A DNA stretch of 64,000 nucleotides from an uncultured beta proteobacterium (GTDB lineage: Bacteria > Pseudomonadota > Gammaproteobacteria > Burkholderiales > SG8-41), in NCBI GenBank assembly GCA_903885665.1, contig CAISJL010000183.1, positions 1-64,000 of the forward strand. The letters are read 5' to 3'. The notes below the pieces were generated by a model. The model ran no database searches. It was given only the letters and a program-made list of their open reading frames with translations, and was not told the origin of the DNA. How positions within the stretch are numbered: position 1 is the stretch's first letter; each line of letters begins with the position of its first letter. The position numbers and the translations under genes were made by a program. Below, piece after piece: positions 29,596 through 40,132 of this stretch.

Positions 29596-30594
29596 CTATT
29601 CTACTTTTAGACCGGTAGATTTTATAACTCTTGTCCACTTAGCTAAATCACTCTTGACCAATGTTGCAAGCTCTGCCGGACTGCTCACGTCAACATCTAA
29701 CCCCTGCTCAACCAGAATCCCTTTTGATTCTGGCGTATGCATTGCCTTTTTAACCAATTCGTTTAATTTTGCAATGATTTGTGGGGGAGTTGATGCTGGT
29801 GCAAATAATGCATTCCAAGCAGTGACTTCATAGCCTGGCAAGGTGACTTCAGAAATTGTTGGGACATTAGGCAAAACGCTGGATCGCTTAGCACCGGTAA
29901 CCCCTAGGGCAATGAGTCTTCCCGATTTGACATGGGGCACTACTGTTGTGCTGCCGAAATGTAATGCAACTTGGCCACCTAATAAATCTGGCATGACTTG
30001 GCCAGTACCTTTGTAGGGAATATGCACCATACGAGTTTTTGCCATCGCATTAAACAATTCAGCCGCCATATGAGTACCACTACCCACTCCTACCGACGCA
30101 TAGTTGATTTGACCAGGCTTTGCTTTGGCTAAAGCGATGAGTTGCTCAATTGATCTAACAGGGAGTGATGCATGACTGACCAAAAAAAACATATAAGAAG
30201 AAACTTTAGATATACTGTCGAAATCTCGAACAGGATCATATGCAATTTTGGTTTGCAGGACCGGATTCACCGTAATGCTACTTTGCACAATTAATAGCGT
30301 GTATCCATCTGCTTGAGATTTTGCAACATATTCCACGCCAATATTGCCGCCTGCACCAGGTTTATTTTCAACTATAACTTGTTGACCAAGCTCAGCTGCC
30401 ATGTATTTAGATAAAATTCTGGCAACCAGATCTAATGAACCACCAGGACTAAATGGATTAATAATGCGTACTGTTTTTAGCGGATAAGTCTGCGCATTTG
30501 CAACGGTGCTAAAGAAACATGCAGCGAGAAACATTCTAAAAGAATATTTCTTGGCACGTCTTAATTTGTCAGACAGAGTCACGGCGGCAAACAA
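29596..30594 (-). CDS. Bug/TctC family tripartite tricarboxylate transporter receptor
   Basis: YPLKTVRIINPFSPGGSLDLVARILSKYMAAELGQQVIVENKPGAGGNIGVEYVAKSQADGYTLL. Confidence 0.94.
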   Translation of the reverse strand: MFAAVTLSDKLRRAKKYSFRMFLAACFFSTVANAQTYPLKTVRIINPFSPGGSLDLVARILSKYMAAELGQQVIVENKPGAGGNIGVEYVAKSQADGYTLLIVQSSITVNPVLQTKIAYDPVRDFDSISKVSSYMFFLVSHASLPVRSIEQLIALAKAKPGQINYASVGVGSGTHMAAELFNAMAKTRMVHIPYKGTGQVMPDLLGGQVALHFGSTTVVPHVKSGRLIALGVTGAKRSSVLPNVPTISEVTLPGYEVTAWNALFAPASTPPQIIAKLNELVKKAMHTPESKGILVEQGLDVDVSSPAELATLVKSDLAKWTRVIKSTGLKVE

Positions 30595-31436: not shown

Positions 31437-32474
31437 TTAGTCCGCTTTCATACCAACAGCTTTTATTACTCGACTGTTTAGCGCCAGCTCTTTACTAATC
31501 ATTTTAGAAAATTCAGTTGGTGTAGAACCTACAATATCTGTGCCCTGAAAATCAAAACGTTCTTTAACATCAGGTAATATTAATAATTGCGAAATTTTCT
31601 GATACAAAAAATCAATAATCTCTTTAGGCGTGCCGGCAGGCGCTAATAGTCCTTGCCAAGGTGCCGTATTAAAATCTGCAACACCAGACTCTAAAAATGT
31701 GGGTACAAGGGGCAGGTATGACTCTCGCTTATTGGCAGAAGTACCTAACACTTTCACTTTACCACTTTTTAAATGTCCCATTACGGTTGGCGGCGTAGTA
31801 AATATCACTTGCACCTCATTTTGAATCAGTGCCGTTAGTGCTGGTGCTCCCCCTTTGAAAGGGATAGAGGTCATTTTGATGTCGGTAATCATCTTAAAAA
31901 CCTCTGCGGCTAACGCGCCAGAGCTACTTGGAGTCGCCCAAGCAACATTTAAGGTGTTAGGCTTGGCTTTTGCAAACGCGATAAGCTCTGCAACCGTATT
32001 GACGGGCACTTGCGAATTGACGGTTAGCAGCAAGGACTGCTGTCCAGCTAAGGTAACAGCAGAAAAATCTTTATATACATCATATGGAATATTTTTAAAA
32101 ATAAATGGCACTATCGTATGTGCCGCATAGGTGAATAGCAAGGTATAACCATCTGGACGTGCTTTGGCAACAATTTCATTACCAAGAATGCCACCAGCAC
32201 CAGGTCGATTATCAACAACAATAGATTTCCCAAGTGTGTCACTGAGTTTGTTGATGACAATACGCGCAATAATATCGGTTCCGCCAGCTGCTGCGACCGG
32301 AACAATAACTCGAATTGCCCTTGCAGGATAAATTGGTCTAATGGAGTTACCTATCTTAGTGTCAGCACCAAAACTAAGACTACAATACAGACAGCAACTC
32401 GCAATTAGTGAATACCTGAAGAAAATTTTAAAAGATATGTTTAGATTTGAATATTTATTTAATATTAAGAACAT
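31437..32474 (-). CDS. Bug/TctC family tripartite tricarboxylate transporter receptor
   Basis: YPARAIRVIVPVAAAGGTDIIARIVINKLSDTLGKSIVVDNRPGAGGILGNEIVAKARPDGYTLLF. Confidence 0.93.
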   Translation of the reverse strand: MFLILNKYSNLNISFKIFFRYSLIASCCLYCSLSFGADTKIGNSIRPIYPARAIRVIVPVAAAGGTDIIARIVINKLSDTLGKSIVVDNRPGAGGILGNEIVAKARPDGYTLLFTYAAHTIVPFIFKNIPYDVYKDFSAVTLAGQQSLLLTVNSQVPVNTVAELIAFAKAKPNTLNVAWATPSSSGALAAEVFKMITDIKMTSIPFKGGAPALTALIQNEVQVIFTTPPTVMGHLKSGKVKVLGTSANKRESYLPLVPTFLESGVADFNTAPWQGLLAPAGTPKEIIDFLYQKISQLLILPDVKERFDFQGTDIVGSTPTEFSKMISKELALNSRVIKAVGMKAD

Positions 32475-32786: not shown

Positions 32787-33770
32787 TTAATCAGCTTTCA
32801 TACCAGCAGATTTAGCAACGCTAGCCCATTTTTGCAAATCAGCTTTAATCATTCTGGAAATCTGATCTGGAGTTTTAATATCAATTTCAACCCCTTCATT
32901 ATTAAAGCGTTTTAGGACTTCAGGGTTTTTTAAATATTGACTAATTTCGTTATTGATTTTCATGATAATTGACGTTGAAACCCCAGTCGGTGCAGCAATT
33001 GCCCACCAGTTTGCAGCTTCGTAATTTGATACACCTGATTCATGAATCGTTGGAAGCTCTGGAAACATCGTTGTTCGTTTTAGTCCACCGGTTGCGATAG
33101 GCTTTAATCGACCAGAACGAATATGCGGAATGGCCTGAACAATCGAGCCAACGATCATGTGTGCCTGCCCTCCCATGACATCAACCATGGCAGGCATCCC
33201 ACCCTTATACAATACAATCGTAAAATCTTGACCCGATAAGGTTTTAAATAAAGCAGAAGCAAAATGTTGAAACCCACCTGCAGAGGCCATCGTATAAAAA
33301 CCGGGCTTACTTTTAGCTAGGCTTAAAATTTCTTTGACTGATGTAGCAGCCAATAAAGAACCGGTTGTTAATACGGTAGGACCACTACCTAAAAAGCCAA
33401 CCCATTCAAATGCATTTAATGAATCATATGGTAATTTTTTTAATGCGGGGTTCATAGTAAAGGCAGCTGAAGCCATTAATAAAGTATACCCATCTTTAGC
33501 AGATCGAGAGACTATTTCCGTGCCAATAATACCTTCAGCGCCAGAGCGGTTATCAACTACAACTGGTTTCCCTAGGCGATCGCCTAAGTAAATTGTAAAT
33601 CCTCTCGCCATAATGTCATTACTACCGCCAGCAGCTTGCGGCACTATGAGCCGAATTGGTTTGCTAGGATAGCCCTTATCAGGTTTAGTTTGGCTTAGCG
33701 CGCTGGCTGCTGAAAACAGAACTAAAAAGCCTAAAATTGGACTTAAAGTATATTGAAATAACCTCATCAC
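32787..33770 (-). CDS. Bug/TctC family tripartite tricarboxylate transporter receptor
   Basis: YPSKPIRLIVPQAAGGSNDIMARGFTIYLGDRLGKPVVVDNRSGAEGIIGTEIVSRSAKDGYTLL. Confidence 0.93.
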   Translation of the reverse strand: MMRLFQYTLSPILGFLVLFSAASALSQTKPDKGYPSKPIRLIVPQAAGGSNDIMARGFTIYLGDRLGKPVVVDNRSGAEGIIGTEIVSRSAKDGYTLLMASAAFTMNPALKKLPYDSLNAFEWVGFLGSGPTVLTTGSLLAATSVKEILSLAKSKPGFYTMASAGGFQHFASALFKTLSGQDFTIVLYKGGMPAMVDVMGGQAHMIVGSIVQAIPHIRSGRLKPIATGGLKRTTMFPELPTIHESGVSNYEAANWWAIAAPTGVSTSIIMKINNEISQYLKNPEVLKRFNNEGVEIDIKTPDQISRMIKADLQKWASVAKSAGMKAD

Positions 33771-33920: not shown

Positions 33921-34787
33921 ATGCTAAATAAATTTACAACAATCGAACAAGCAGCCATGGCAGTTAAATCGGGGATGCAAATAGTAATGAGTGCAAACCT
34001 AAGTCGGTCCCCCATGGCAATATTACGCCAAATCGTAAAGCAAGGAACAGAAAAGTTACGTATTGTGGGCGTTGTTGGTGGTGATTTGAATATTGACTTC
34101 TTAGTAGGTGCAAATGCAGTCGCATCTGTTGATACTTGTAGCGTGACTATGGGTGAATTCGCTAGAACAGGTCCAAATTTCTCACGCCATCTTTTGGCTA
34201 AACGAGTGCTGTCGCTAGATAATACTTGAGGGGTTTTATTTTCACAGGCCCAGGCTGGGTCTATGGGTGTGCCTTATGTGCCGATTATTGGTTTAATTGG
34301 TACCGATATTTTAAAACGACGTCTGGATATGAAGATTGTTGAAAACCCTTTTAACCCAGATGTTAAAACTGTTGTTGCTCAATCTCTGCGACCAGATATT
34401 GCGATATTCCATGCACAGAGCGCAGATAAACTTGGCAATATATCCTGTGGCTATGATGCAGAAGTCGTCATGTTGGCCGAAGGCGCAAAACATGTCATCG
34501 TTACTGTAGAGAGCGTGGTCGATAAAATCACTGAAAAAGATTCTGTTGGAACTTATATTCCATCAATACTGGTGAATTCAATTGTTCATGCGCCTTATGG
34601 CGCTCACCCTTCAGGTTGCGCAGGGCTTTATGATCCAGATAAAGTCCACATGCAAGCGTATGTAAAAGCTTCACAAAGTGAAGAAACATTCCAAGAATAT
34701 CTCAAAAAATATGTTCATGGGATAAGCAGTCACGAGGAATACATCGATATGGCGATTCCAGATCACATTAAAAAAACAATTAAATAA
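33921..34787 (+). pseudogene. CoA-transferase subunit A (acyl-CoA:acetate/3-ketoacid or glutaconate CoA-transferase-like) interrupted by a single in-frame TGA at 34227-34229
   Basis: Track ORFs 33921..34229 and 34263..34787 are in the same frame (offset 342 nt). Readthrough gives ...FARTGPNFSRHLLAKRVLSLDNT*GVLFSQAQAGSMGVPYVPIIGLIGTDIL.... Confidence 0.8.
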
Positions 34788-35531: not shown

Positions 35532-36482
35532 ATGTCAAACACACAAAATCACATACAGTCAATCCAAGATATTGAAAATGGATTAGCCAATACGGGCTAC
35601 ATCTCAAATACCCAAATCTCTACTGCTGTTTTTATTGCGCAGCAATTACAAAAACCCATTCTAGTTGAAGGTCCTGCTGGAGTGGGCAAAACGGAACTTG
35701 CAAAATCCTTATCTACTTGGCTACATAAACCATTAATACGCATGCAATGCTATGAGGGGCTGGATGAGTCAAAAGCACTGTACGAATGGAAATATGGAAA
35801 ACAATTGCTGTACACACAGATCCTTAAGGATAAAATTGGTTCAGTCATTAGCGAGTCCGATTCACTGAATGGAGCTTTAGAGAAGTTACATGATTTTGGC
35901 GACATATTCTTTTCTCGTAACTTCCTAGAGCCTAGACCTTTACTCCAAGCACTGGAACAGCCTGAAGGCTGTATATTACTTATTGATGAGATTGATAAAT
36001 CTGATCAAGAGTTTGAGGCCTTTCTATTGGAAATCTTATCTGACTATCAGGTTTCAGTGCCTGAAATTGGTAAAATCAGCGCCATTGTCCCGCCGTTAGT
36101 GCTATTAACATCGAATTCAACACGTGACCTTGGCGATGCCCTAAAGCGTAGATGCTTACATTTGCACATCGGGTTTCCTGATGAGCGTTTAGAAGAAAAA
36201 ATTATCAATTCTAGAGTTCCGGATATCAACAAAAAACTACTCAAACAAATTGTCAGTTTTGTGCAACAGCTGAGGTCCTTAGATTTAAAAAAAGTGCCCT
36301 CTGTAAGCGAAACTATCGACTGGGCTAAGGTCCTAATATTATTTCATACAAGCATTCTTGACACCGATACTGTCAATGAGACGCTAAATGTACTTTTAAA
36401 ATTTGAGTCTGATATCGAAACCGCGCGGAAACAAACCCACACCTTAACTCAACAGTCACAACGCGCTTCTGAAATCAGTTAA
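35532..36482 (+). CDS. MoxR-type AAA+ ATPase (CoxD-like)
   Basis: 316 aa; Walker A VEGPAGVGKTELAKSL, Walker B ILLIDEIDKSD, sensor LLTSNSTRDLGDALKRRCLHLHIGFPDE. Confidence 0.9.
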   Translation: MSNTQNHIQSIQDIENGLANTGYISNTQISTAVFIAQQLQKPILVEGPAGVGKTELAKSLSTWLHKPLIRMQCYEGLDESKALYEWKYGKQLLYTQILKDKIGSVISESDSLNGALEKLHDFGDIFFSRNFLEPRPLLQALEQPEGCILLIDEIDKSDQEFEAFLLEILSDYQVSVPEIGKISAIVPPLVLLTSNSTRDLGDALKRRCLHLHIGFPDERLEEKIINSRVPDINKKLLKQIVSFVQQLRSLDLKKVPSVSETIDWAKVLILFHTSILDTDTVNETLNVLLKFESDIETARKQTHTLTQQSQRASEIS

Positions 36483-37888
36483 TGCAGCATCAAGAGCAAA
36501 AATTTATATTTGAGAATGGACACTTAGCCAGTAAACCTTTGCGTCAATTCTTACAGGTTGCAAGAGGTGCCGGCTTGCGCATATCTGCTGCTGAAAGTAT
36601 TGACGCAGCACGCTCTGTTGCTATTGTGGGTTGGAATAATAAAGCCATTACCAAAACTACACTATCACTTCTACTAGCAAAATCTCCAGAAGAGAAAAGT
36701 CAATTTGATCATATTTTTGAGCTCTACTTTAAAAGTCAAGAGTTTTTAAAATCAACGAATAACGAACATACAGAAGAATTAGATAAAACCTCAAATAATT
36801 TTAATCATTCAGATATCAGCCAACATAGCAACGAATTGACAGAGGCATTGTTACGAGATGACCAAGCCACACTAGCTAATCTGATTGCGCAAGCTGCAAA
36901 TGATATTGAGTTGGAAAATATTCGCTTATTTACCCAAAAAAATCTCTATACCAGAAGAATCCTTGAGCGAATGGGAATACGCGCTTTAGAAATGAAAATT
37001 TCTGCACAATCAGAAGCGCAATCTATTAATGAGTCCTCTGATTTTGATGTGTTAAGCGAACGTATTCATACGTTAAGAAACTCTGTGCGTGATTATGTTG
37101 AGCGTCAATTACTACTGTTTGGCAGAGCGCAAAGCGAACAGTTTCGGGAAGAATTGCTTAAATCCTCAAGAATTTCAAATTTAAATGCGCAAGATCTCAT
37201 TCGGATGAGACAGTTGGTTCGACAAATGGCAAAAAAATTAGCGGGTCGTTATGCCAAAATGCGAAAAAAACGGCTACGCGGTCAGCTGGATGTAAGACGC
37301 ACAATGCGCCGCAACATGGCCTGGGGTGGGATTCCATTCGTTACGCATTGGAAACAAAAACGTATAGAAAAACCTAAGGTGATGGTCATCTGTGATGTTT
37401 CAGGATCTGTTGCTGCAATGTCTGGATTTCTGCTGATGTTTTTATATGCCCTAAATGAAGCGCTTTCAGATATACGATCATTTGCTTTTTCAGGGACCAT
37501 GATTGAAGTCAGTGATATCCTAGAGTCTGAGTCTGTAGAAAAAGCAATTGAAAAAATACTAGAAGTCATTGGATTTCAATCATCAAATTACGGTAGTTCT
37601 TTTACAGACTTTGACGAAAATTGGATTAGATTCCTTAGCCCTAAGACCACAGTGATTATTCTTGGCGATGCGAGGGGTAATAATACAGATCCAAAAGTTG
37701 AAATTCTTAAAAATATTGCTACCAGAAGTAAACAGTTAATCTGGCTAAATCCTGAATATGAGTCATCTTGGGGTACTGGTGATTCTGATATGCATAGATA
37801 TGCCCCATATTGCAAGCAAGTCACCGTATGCAATACACTCAGACACTTAGAAAATGCTATTAGCGAAATTATGGTGCACTCCACTTAA
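36482..37888 (+). CDS. VWA domain-containing CoxE-like protein
   Basis: 468 aa; DVRRTMRRNMAWGGIPFVTHWKQKRIEKPKVMVICDVSGSVAAMSGFLLMFLYAL (MIDAS DxSxS), GSSFTDF, TTVIILGDARGNNTDP, WLNPE; TAATG overlap with the ATPase gene. Confidence 0.9.
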   Translation: MQHQEQKFIFENGHLASKPLRQFLQVARGAGLRISAAESIDAARSVAIVGWNNKAITKTTLSLLLAKSPEEKSQFDHIFELYFKSQEFLKSTNNEHTEELDKTSNNFNHSDISQHSNELTEALLRDDQATLANLIAQAANDIELENIRLFTQKNLYTRRILERMGIRALEMKISAQSEAQSINESSDFDVLSERIHTLRNSVRDYVERQLLLFGRAQSEQFREELLKSSRISNLNAQDLIRMRQLVRQMAKKLAGRYAKMRKKRLRGQLDVRRTMRRNMAWGGIPFVTHWKQKRIEKPKVMVICDVSGSVAAMSGFLLMFLYALNEALSDIRSFAFSGTMIEVSDILESESVEKAIEKILEVIGFQSSNYGSSFTDFDENWIRFLSPKTTVIILGDARGNNTDPKVEILKNIATRSKQLIWLNPEYESSWGTGDSDMHRYAPYCKQVTVCNTLRHLENAISEIMVHST

Positions 37889-37915
37889 ATTCTAATCAAC
37901 ATTAAAGGATATGTC

Positions 37916-38197
37916 GTGAGAATTTATAAAATCCCATTTAATTTATTATTTTCATTATTTTCATTATCGTCACTATTATCAACTACCGCTTCTGCTCAGT
38001 CCGATTGCGCCACTTTAAAAGATAATGACTACAAGCATATGTGTCTAGCTACTTCGACCGGAAAATCCTCATTTTGTAACTCAATCAAAGATAACGATTC
38101 AAAAAACATGTGCCTAGCCAGAGTTGACTTAAAAAAAGCAAACTGCGACAAGATAAAAGCAAAAGACATTAAAAAAGAATGCCTAGCAATGTTCTAA
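37916..38197 (+). CDS. Small predicted secreted Cys-repeat protein (GTG start)
   Basis: 93 aa; signal peptide ending TTASAQS, then three C-x11-C-L-A repeats (CATLKDNDYKHMCLA / CNSIKDNDSKNMCLA / CDKIKAKDIKKECLA); AAAGGA upstream. Confidence 0.7.
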   Translation: MRIYKIPFNLLFSLFSLSSLLSTTASAQSDCATLKDNDYKHMCLATSTGKSSFCNSIKDNDSKNMCLARVDLKKANCDKIKAKDIKKECLAMF

Positions 38198-38207
38198 TTG
38201 ATTTGAA

Positions 38208-39101
38208 ATGAAAATTAATGAAAGGTGTCTGATGATTTCCTTTAAAAAACTTCATAATTACGTTGGTGCTGAAGTCAGTCCTATACAGCTTAAGAATGTA
38301 TTTGATCAGGTCATACTAGATCAGCTTGTATCTGGTATGGACACACATGGTGTATTAGTATTTAGAAACCAGATCATGAGTGACGAGGAGCAAATGGCGT
38401 TTTGTGAACGATTTGGCGGCCCCCTACATACCAAGCCTGGTGTTGCTGCCCTCGGAAAAAATAAATTCAATAATAACGCCATTGCTGACATTTCTAATGT
38501 CGATGAAAATGGTCAGATTAGAGCAGTAGACGATAGACGCAGAATGTATTCATTAGCAAATCGACTATGGCACACCGATGCCTCCTTCCAAAGTCCTGCA
38601 GGCCGATACTCAACGCTTTGTGCTAAAGTCATCCCTAAAGTAGGCGCCAATACTGAATTTGCAGATATGGCCGCCGCTTATGATGCACTGGATCACAATA
38701 CTAAGAATATGATTGCAGGACTGCATGTACATCACTCTATTGCTTATTCACGACAACTGCTCGGATTTAGTTTCTCCGAAGAGGAGTTGAATGAACTCAA
38801 AGGCGCGGTTCACCCATTGGTTCGTGTCAACCCTAGAACTCAGCAAAAATCTTTATATTTAGCCTCACATGCCAATAAAATCATAGAAATGCCGATTCCG
38901 GAGGGGAGACTTTTGCTAAGAGACCTGACCGAGCATGCAACTCAGCCACAATTTGTATATAGCCATCAATGGCAAGATCATGATTTTGTTATCTGGGATA
39001 ATTTAGCAACAATGCATAGAGCAACTGCTTTTGACGATGCAAAAACGCCTCGTGAACTCAGGCGAGTGACCACATTAGAATCGACCCCAAGTCATGCATA
39101 G
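38208..39101 (+). CDS. TauD/TfdA family Fe(II)/2-oxoglutarate-dependent dioxygenase (start may be ATG at 38232)
   Basis: GMDTHGVLVFRNQIMSDEEQMAFCERFG, metal-binding LWHTDASFQ (HxD), distal His in FVIWDNLATMHRA. Confidence 0.9.
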   Translation: MKINERCLMISFKKLHNYVGAEVSPIQLKNVFDQVILDQLVSGMDTHGVLVFRNQIMSDEEQMAFCERFGGPLHTKPGVAALGKNKFNNNAIADISNVDENGQIRAVDDRRRMYSLANRLWHTDASFQSPAGRYSTLCAKVIPKVGANTEFADMAAAYDALDHNTKNMIAGLHVHHSIAYSRQLLGFSFSEEELNELKGAVHPLVRVNPRTQQKSLYLASHANKIIEMPIPEGRLLLRDLTEHATQPQFVYSHQWQDHDFVIWDNLATMHRATAFDDAKTPRELRRVTTLESTPSHA

Positions 39102-39148: not shown

Positions 39149-40132
39149 TTAATCGAGCTTTGCTCCTGAGCTTTGAATTATACGCTCCCATTTTTTAATT
39201 TCATTTCGAATACGCGCTAAGAATTGCTCGGGAGTATTACCTACAGGATCCAGAGCTAGAGCAATCAGCTTGTCGCTAACTTGGGTCGTCTTCAGAGCAA
39301 TTTGTATTTCACTATGTATTCGTTTGACTATGACAGAGGGTACTTGGGCTGGACCTACCATGCCATACCATGAGTTAGCATCATAACCATTCAGCCCCGA
39401 TTCGCTCATCGTTGGAATGTTAGGTGCTGCTGCTGTTCGAGTGATTGATGTTACAGCGATCCCTCTAATTTTTCCTGATTGGATCATTGATATTACCGAA
39501 GCTGCTGATGGTATAGCAGCAACAATCTGGCCGTTTAATAAGTCTGGTAGTAATGATCCGGCGCCTTTGTACGGCACATGATTGATATCAATTTTTGCAA
39601 TGGATTTGAGTAATTCCATAGCCAAATGTGTTGGTGTGCCATTGCCTGCTGAACCATAGGTTAGTTGATTGGGTTTAGATTTAGCTAGGCTAATAAATTC
39701 TTTTAAGTTAGAAACTGGGAGACTTAGTGTAGTAACAAGCATGCCAGGTGCATATACCACCAAAGATATTGGAGTGAAATCTTTTACCGTGTCATAAGGT
39801 AGTGATTTATGTAGACTGATATTAATGCTATGACTACTACTAACCAGCCCCAGGGTGTAACCATCGGGAGCTGATTTAGCAACAATATCTGTACCAATAA
39901 TTCCCCCTGCCCCATTTCTATTGTCGACAACGATAGCAACACCTAATTGCTCGGAAAGACGTTGACTCACTATTCTAGCTGCAATATCAGTTCCACCGCC
40001 TGCGGTAAAAGGCACCACTAAGCGTATAGATCGATTCGGATAGGACTGCGCAAATGTCAGATGACTGGTAATTATAAAAATAATACCTATTAAAAAATGA
40101 ATGCGATACGAATGATTTAAATGTAAAGTCAT
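39149..40132 (-). CDS. Bug/TctC family tripartite tricarboxylate transporter receptor
   Basis: YPNRSIRLVVPFTAGGGTDIAARIVSQRLSEQLGVAIVVDNRNGAGGIIGTDIVAKSAPDGYTLG. Confidence 0.94.
   Translation of the reverse strand: MTLHLNHSYRIHFLIGIIFIITSHLTFAQSYPNRSIRLVVPFTAGGGTDIAARIVSQRLSEQLGVAIVVDNRNGAGGIIGTDIVAKSAPDGYTLGLVSSSHSINISLHKSLPYDTVKDFTPISLVVYAPGMLVTTLSLPVSNLKEFISLAKSKPNQLTYGSAGNGTPTHLAMELLKSIAKIDINHVPYKGAGSLLPDLLNGQIVAAIPSAASVISMIQSGKIRGIAVTSITRTAAAPNIPTMSESGLNGYDANSWYGMVGPAQVPSVIVKRIHSEIQIALKTTQVSDKLIALALDPVGNTPEQFLARIRNEIKKWERIIQSSGAKLD

Follow-up and report, generated by a model that had tools for sequence, protein, structure and literature searches.

The product of a short, cysteine-rich open reading frame in the 64,000-nucleotide stretch of DNA analysed here (the window), packed between the genes of a MoxR/VWA pair and that of a dioxygenase, raised the questions of whether it is a real repeat protein, whether it acts together with the products of its neighbours and, if not, what else it may do. 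The features on which the analysis rests are the following.

36482..37888, + strand: VWA_CoxE protein gene, upstream neighbour, separated from the Cys-repeat gene by a 27 bp gap (Pfam PF05762, E=7e-38)
37904..37909, + strand: AAAGGA, ribosome-binding-like site, 6 nt 5' of the GTG start (read from sequence)
37916..38197, + strand: three-repeat Cys protein gene, 93 aa, GTG start, TAA stop (ORF and family profile)
37916..37996, + strand: signal peptide MRIYKIPFNLLFSLFSLSSLLSTTASA, predicted cut ASA/Q (from the sequence; the N-terminus is of low confidence in both protein models)
38006..38074, + strand: repeat 1, residues 31-53
38075..38143, + strand: repeat 2, residues 54-76
38144..38194, + strand: repeat 3, residues 77-93, core only
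38208..39101, + strand: TauD/TfdA-type dioxygenase gene, downstream neighbour (Pfam PF02668, E=9e-59)

The initial annotation had described a small secreted protein containing three Cx11CLA repeats and six evenly spaced cysteines, and this description was borne out with regard to the reading frame, the GTG start, the coordinates and the signal peptide. The latter ends in ...TTASA/QSDC, which leaves a mature part of 66 residues, and no lipobox could be read from its sequence. The repeat units, CATLKDNDYKHMCLA, CNSIKDNDSKNMCLA and CDKIKAKDIKKECLA, all match the pattern originally given and read C-x2-[IL]-x3-D-x4-C-L-A at 23 aa each, with the cysteines strictly paired at positions 31/43, 54/66 and 77/89 and a period of exactly 23. 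Using a profile built from 11 relatives, with the window protein left out, we obtained a score of 73 bits for the window protein, whereas the best of 10,000 shuffled versions of its mature part scored 18.3 bits, indicating that the repeat pattern is real and not a matter of composition. Moreover, when the repeats of the window protein were compared with one another, synonymous sites were near saturation while non-synonymous differences amounted to only 0.18-0.33 per site, from which it follows that the repeats are old and constrained. Export of the window protein is likewise supported.

In the pooled set of relatives, which comprises 50 distinct proteins, we counted 143 repeat units. Since our definition of a unit demanded both cysteines, the cysteine percentages are circular, but the constant spacing and the lack of extra cysteines are not: units in chains were always 23 aa apart in the 50 proteins, and an internal unit, the loss of which would give a spacing of 46, was never missing. 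The family consensus reads C-Y-S-I-x-[DN]-x-D-x-[KR]-[NA]-x-C-L-A-x-[VA]-[KR]-x3-S-x, in which the residues conserved besides cysteine (Tyr2, Ile4, Asp8, Leu14 and Ala15) look structural. Homologues of variable repeat number, which the initial annotation had proposed to look for, were indeed found, with two units in 19 proteins, from phages and a satellite-like plasmid, three units in 27 and six units in 4; one relative, L040, consists of two three-unit blocks joined by a longer linker. As for selection, dN/dS was ~0.03-0.13 in three Polynucleobacter-type pairs and 0.2-0.25 in plasmid-type pairs, and the L074/L076 pair differed by 20 synonymous versus 3 non-synonymous changes. This excess of synonymous over non-synonymous changes in close pairs shows that purifying selection acts on them, chromosomal copies included, and that the family members are maintained proteins. 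The repeat architecture of the family is well supported.

That the protein fits no named family, as the initial annotation had noted, was confirmed in Pfam, NCBIfam, PHROGs, PADLOC and PDB. The first four of these libraries returned at most weak, scattered or compositional matches for the Cys-repeat protein, for which reason Sybindin, Ski_Sno, YqzH and Kringle were rejected as identities, and the PADLOC defence-system search gave no match. A profile search of PDB chains with the family found no match, nor did fold searches of two models against the PDB at E <= 0.001, and nothing significant for the Cys-repeat model came from the viral structure library; a fold match to the cuprous-ion periplasmic protein 7vw1 had an E value of 6.9 and was dismissed. 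In the literature, searched by the consensus string and by 23-residue repeats, no description of the family was found. We conclude that none of the libraries searched contains this family as yet. Its detection required a profile, as a genome search with a single sequence missed nearly all relatives.

Structure prediction pointed to a regular helical fold. For the window protein, AlphaFold (12 sequences) produced one good model, with a pLDDT of 81, and four poor ones, and the confident model has the same helix pattern as the relative L068, for which five models (18 sequences) agreed with pLDDT values of 82-83, and mostly above 93 in the mature part. The helices of L068 span residues 25-28, 34-45, 48-53, 57-68, 71-76 and 80-89, so that each unit is predicted to consist of a short helix with Cys-1 and a long helix with Cys-2 and C-L-A, the conserved Asp marking the start of the modelled long helix. 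Because the protein is exported and its cysteines are strictly even in number, we infer that they form disulfides. The initial annotation had proposed either disulfide pairs or metal/ligand binding; the strict pairing of the cysteines stands, while metal binding appears less likely than disulfides since one Asp is the only further potential metal ligand to be conserved. For structural studies, the regular two-Cys unit of 23 aa is appealing as a minimal helical repeat, presumably stapled by disulfides.

The family occurs on plasmids, in phages and on chromosomes. In a tblastn search, relatives turned up on 115-116 plasmid records, nearly all from Pseudomonas and mostly large, about 320-640 kb, as well as in six phage records. 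Among chromosomes the family is patchy: with the window's genome counted in each case, the profile search found relatives in 2/74 genomes of the bacterial family, 15/399 of the order, 3/369 of the class and 2/299 of the phylum, and a search of genome contigs added 14 more loci, mostly from Burkholderiales MAGs, Polynucleobacter, Undibacterium and Pseudomonas. On a satellite-like 19-kb Atlantibacter plasmid, the copy lies directly after a terminase-small-subunit-like gene. In most of the Pseudomonas megaplasmid records listed (for example L024 and L030), the Cys-repeat gene carries no annotation, the plasmid gene table used being known to be incomplete. At L086, a DsbA/thioredoxin-like gene (627-1490) is convergent with the gene for the nearest relative of the window protein, 7 bp apart from it, which we took as a single coincidence.

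In phages, the gene occupies defined positions. Phages of ~90 kb (Touem01, Dolphis, Jeremy, ST4, PHB04 and about 15 IMG/VR contigs) carry the two-unit version, and in about 20 phages this gene lies directly upstream of the prohead protease gene, following either a helicase-like gene or a MuF-like gene, the latter label being our reading of the sequence of a protein that has no Pfam match. Five related phages have the flanking genes without the Cys gene, namely Yersinia phage fHe-Yen8-01, Enterobacter phage phiT5282EW, Morganella phage Mecenats66 and two IMG/VR contigs. Of the 18 carriers, 13 have a strong hairpin-plus-T terminator in the gap that separates the Cys gene from the protease gene, as compared with 0/5 non-carriers; where the upstream gene is the helicase-like one, this gap can also contain a small additional gene, and in some phages the terminator may belong to that gene, 3' of the Cys gene, or serve both. 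A search for a promoter-like match for the phage Cys gene found none. In a second lineage, three contigs with a lambda-family portal gene, a three-unit version lies reversed between the small and large terminase genes. Touem01, which has an integrase and a ParA-like protein, is a predicted temperate phage (PMC11256456). The position between head genes, the absence from sister phages and, in most carriers, the terminator form the pattern of a moron, an extra gene inserted between conserved phage genes, and the phage Cys-repeat gene is one. This mobility of the gene on phages and plasmids is our main new finding.

Two details of these loci may be added. At L028, L062, L063, L066 and L113 the upstream gene is either a portal-MuF or a large helicase-like gene, and the Cys gene adjoins the protease gene in both arrangements. 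At L135-L137, the gap between the small and large terminase genes holds different cargo on each contig, such as a HicAB-type toxin-antitoxin pair beside the Cys gene in L137, and looks like a cargo hot spot.

How could such a protein benefit its carriers? Its place of action is probably the cell envelope. We propose that this small protein would be exported by Sec to the periplasm and consist of tandem two-helix units of 23 residues, in each of which a short helix with Cys-1 would be followed by a turn and a longer helix, started by the near-invariant Asp and holding Cys-2 in C-L-A. Disulfides within the same or between neighbouring units would clamp the helices together as a short, stiff rod, and the number of units would set its length. 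Phages of the temperate type, Pseudomonas megaplasmids and chromosomes would have acquired the gene as a moron, and its product might act in the periplasm as a binding module through which the carrier element or the host keeps competing phages or plasmids from entering, as the Ltp exclusion proteins do. By this analogy, exclusion or entry-blocking is the likeliest function of the Cys-repeat protein, although we put it forward tentatively; both its periplasmic location and its exclusion activity are what we infer from the features above. It counts against exclusion that PADLOC matched nothing and that the chromosomal copies, the one in the window included, have no phage or defence context in sight nearby, and carriage by phages fits other host-fitness functions as well. 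Somewhat doubtful is the broader idea that temperate phages, Pseudomonas megaplasmids and chromosomes have in common a new class of exclusion proteins, periplasmic and laddered with disulfides, whose reach or target specificity would be tuned by the number of units (2, 3 or 6). What has been found is a real family of repeat proteins, not described before, that occurs on clinically common Pseudomonas megaplasmids and on phages; should it act in exclusion, it would represent a barrier in the envelope that is very small, easy to test and disseminated by phages and plasmids alike.

Ltp provides the best parallel since the Cys-repeat protein is exported, small, presumably disulfide-rich, variable in repeat number, patchily distributed on phages and plasmids, and under purifying selection. 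The exported repeat domain of Ltp from the Streptococcus phage TP-J34 causes superinfection exclusion, and its family, members of which are dispersed over phages and bacteria, is considered a moron (PMC3952083). Both, then, are small exported repeat proteins encoded by temperate-phage morons and scattered in bacterial genomes; however, Ltp is a lipoprotein of Gram-positives with a serine-rich spacer, whereas the Cys protein has a different repeat, paired cysteines and no lipobox, and it gave no match at E <= 1 to the Pfam host cell surface-exposed lipoprotein family, to which Ltp belongs. A second likeness concerns architecture. In the Hcp proteins of Helicobacter, disulfides tether one helix-pair repeat to the next (PMC3851747), and mitochondrial COA7 has paired cysteines 9 or 11 residues apart (PMC6505684). 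HcpB/HcpC, which are Sel1-like, and COA7 share exported tandem helix-pair repeats with the Cys protein, whose repeats would, like theirs, be stabilised by disulfides. Sel1 repeats, however, measure 36-38 aa as against 23 aa in all 50 proteins of our family, which has its own consensus, and the Cys-repeat proteins have no Sel1 match in Pfam, nor did the two models match the HcpB/HcpC structures in the PDB at E <= 0.001. By the tests made, the Cys-repeat protein belongs to neither the Ltp nor the Hcp/Sel1 family. The HK97 protein gp15, an inner-membrane protein, resembles it in being encoded by an extra gene in a phage genome, as are the products of similar exclusion morons, and no sequence relationship to the Cys-repeat protein was detected. 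The gp15 gene is cited in PMC11436027 as an extra phage gene that acts on superinfection.

An unlikely alternative to exclusion is that the protein is a mobile, host-protecting periplasmic inhibitor of, or shield against, envelope-attacking enzymes such as lysozyme-like muramidases, proteases or the effectors of rivals. A small exported protein, presumably rich in disulfides, with a patchy distribution on mobile elements would suit such a role, but it resembles none of the known inhibitors in Pfam or PDB, and its model is all-helical, unlike known lysozyme inhibitors, which have beta folds.

We consider it improbable that the protein buffers thiols or metals (copper, zinc, mercury) in the periplasm by offering two Cys ligands per unit. 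The two cysteines of each unit, the variable number of units and the carriage by Pseudomonas megaplasmids agree with this reading; nevertheless, neither His nor Met is conserved, the residues that are conserved besides cysteine look structural as described above, no metal-resistance gene adjoins the Cys gene in the loci read, and in an oxidising compartment cysteine pairs are expected to form disulfides. Very improbable, too, is a phage-derived virion or assembly factor surviving as a relic on plasmids and chromosomes: in one phage lineage the Cys gene always lies between head genes, but sister phages do without it, its product has a Sec signal, the other carriers are not phages and the chromosomal copies are under purifying selection.

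Finally, the initial annotation had suggested a periplasmic partner of the MoxR/VWA pair, and what speaks for it is how closely the genes are packed on one strand in the window, with the Cys gene 27 bp from the VWA gene upstream and ~10-35 bp from the dioxygenase gene downstream. However, the Cys-repeat gene was present at 0/25 other MoxR/VWA loci from this bacterial family, and the TauD gene was missing beside them as well. In G1083, the one other genome of this family with a close relative of the Cys gene, that relative lies on contig C72 and the VWA gene on C10, and the other chromosomal relatives sit in unrelated neighbourhoods lacking a MoxR/VWA neighbour; a search for conserved chromosomal neighbours around the relatives found none. 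The operon-like position is therefore local and does not support partnership, and the VWA and dioxygenase neighbours are not conserved partners. With MoxR and VWA N-termini that have no apparent signal peptide, a MoxR AAA ATPase and VWA protein served by the Cys protein in the periplasm, for example in cofactor-enzyme maturation, is the least credible of all these readings. We favour instead an independently mobile accessory gene that stands outside the MoxR/VWA operon.

The MoxR/VWA pair itself (35532-37888, + strand) resembles MadB/MadC of NCBIfam, with E values of 3.5e-95 and 6e-47; as the scores fall below both cut-offs, it is probably a related, unnamed subfamily. The pair comes after CoA-transferase-like genes, of which the alpha subunit gene (33921-34787, + strand) is one continuous frame interrupted only by an in-frame TGA at 34227-34229, the result of a sequencing error or else of a recent nonsense mutation. 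Around this segment, on the - strand, lie four genes (29596-30594, 31437-32474, 32787-33770 and 39149-40132) whose products, judged by eye and without a profile, look like tripartite-tricarboxylate-type substrate-binding proteins.
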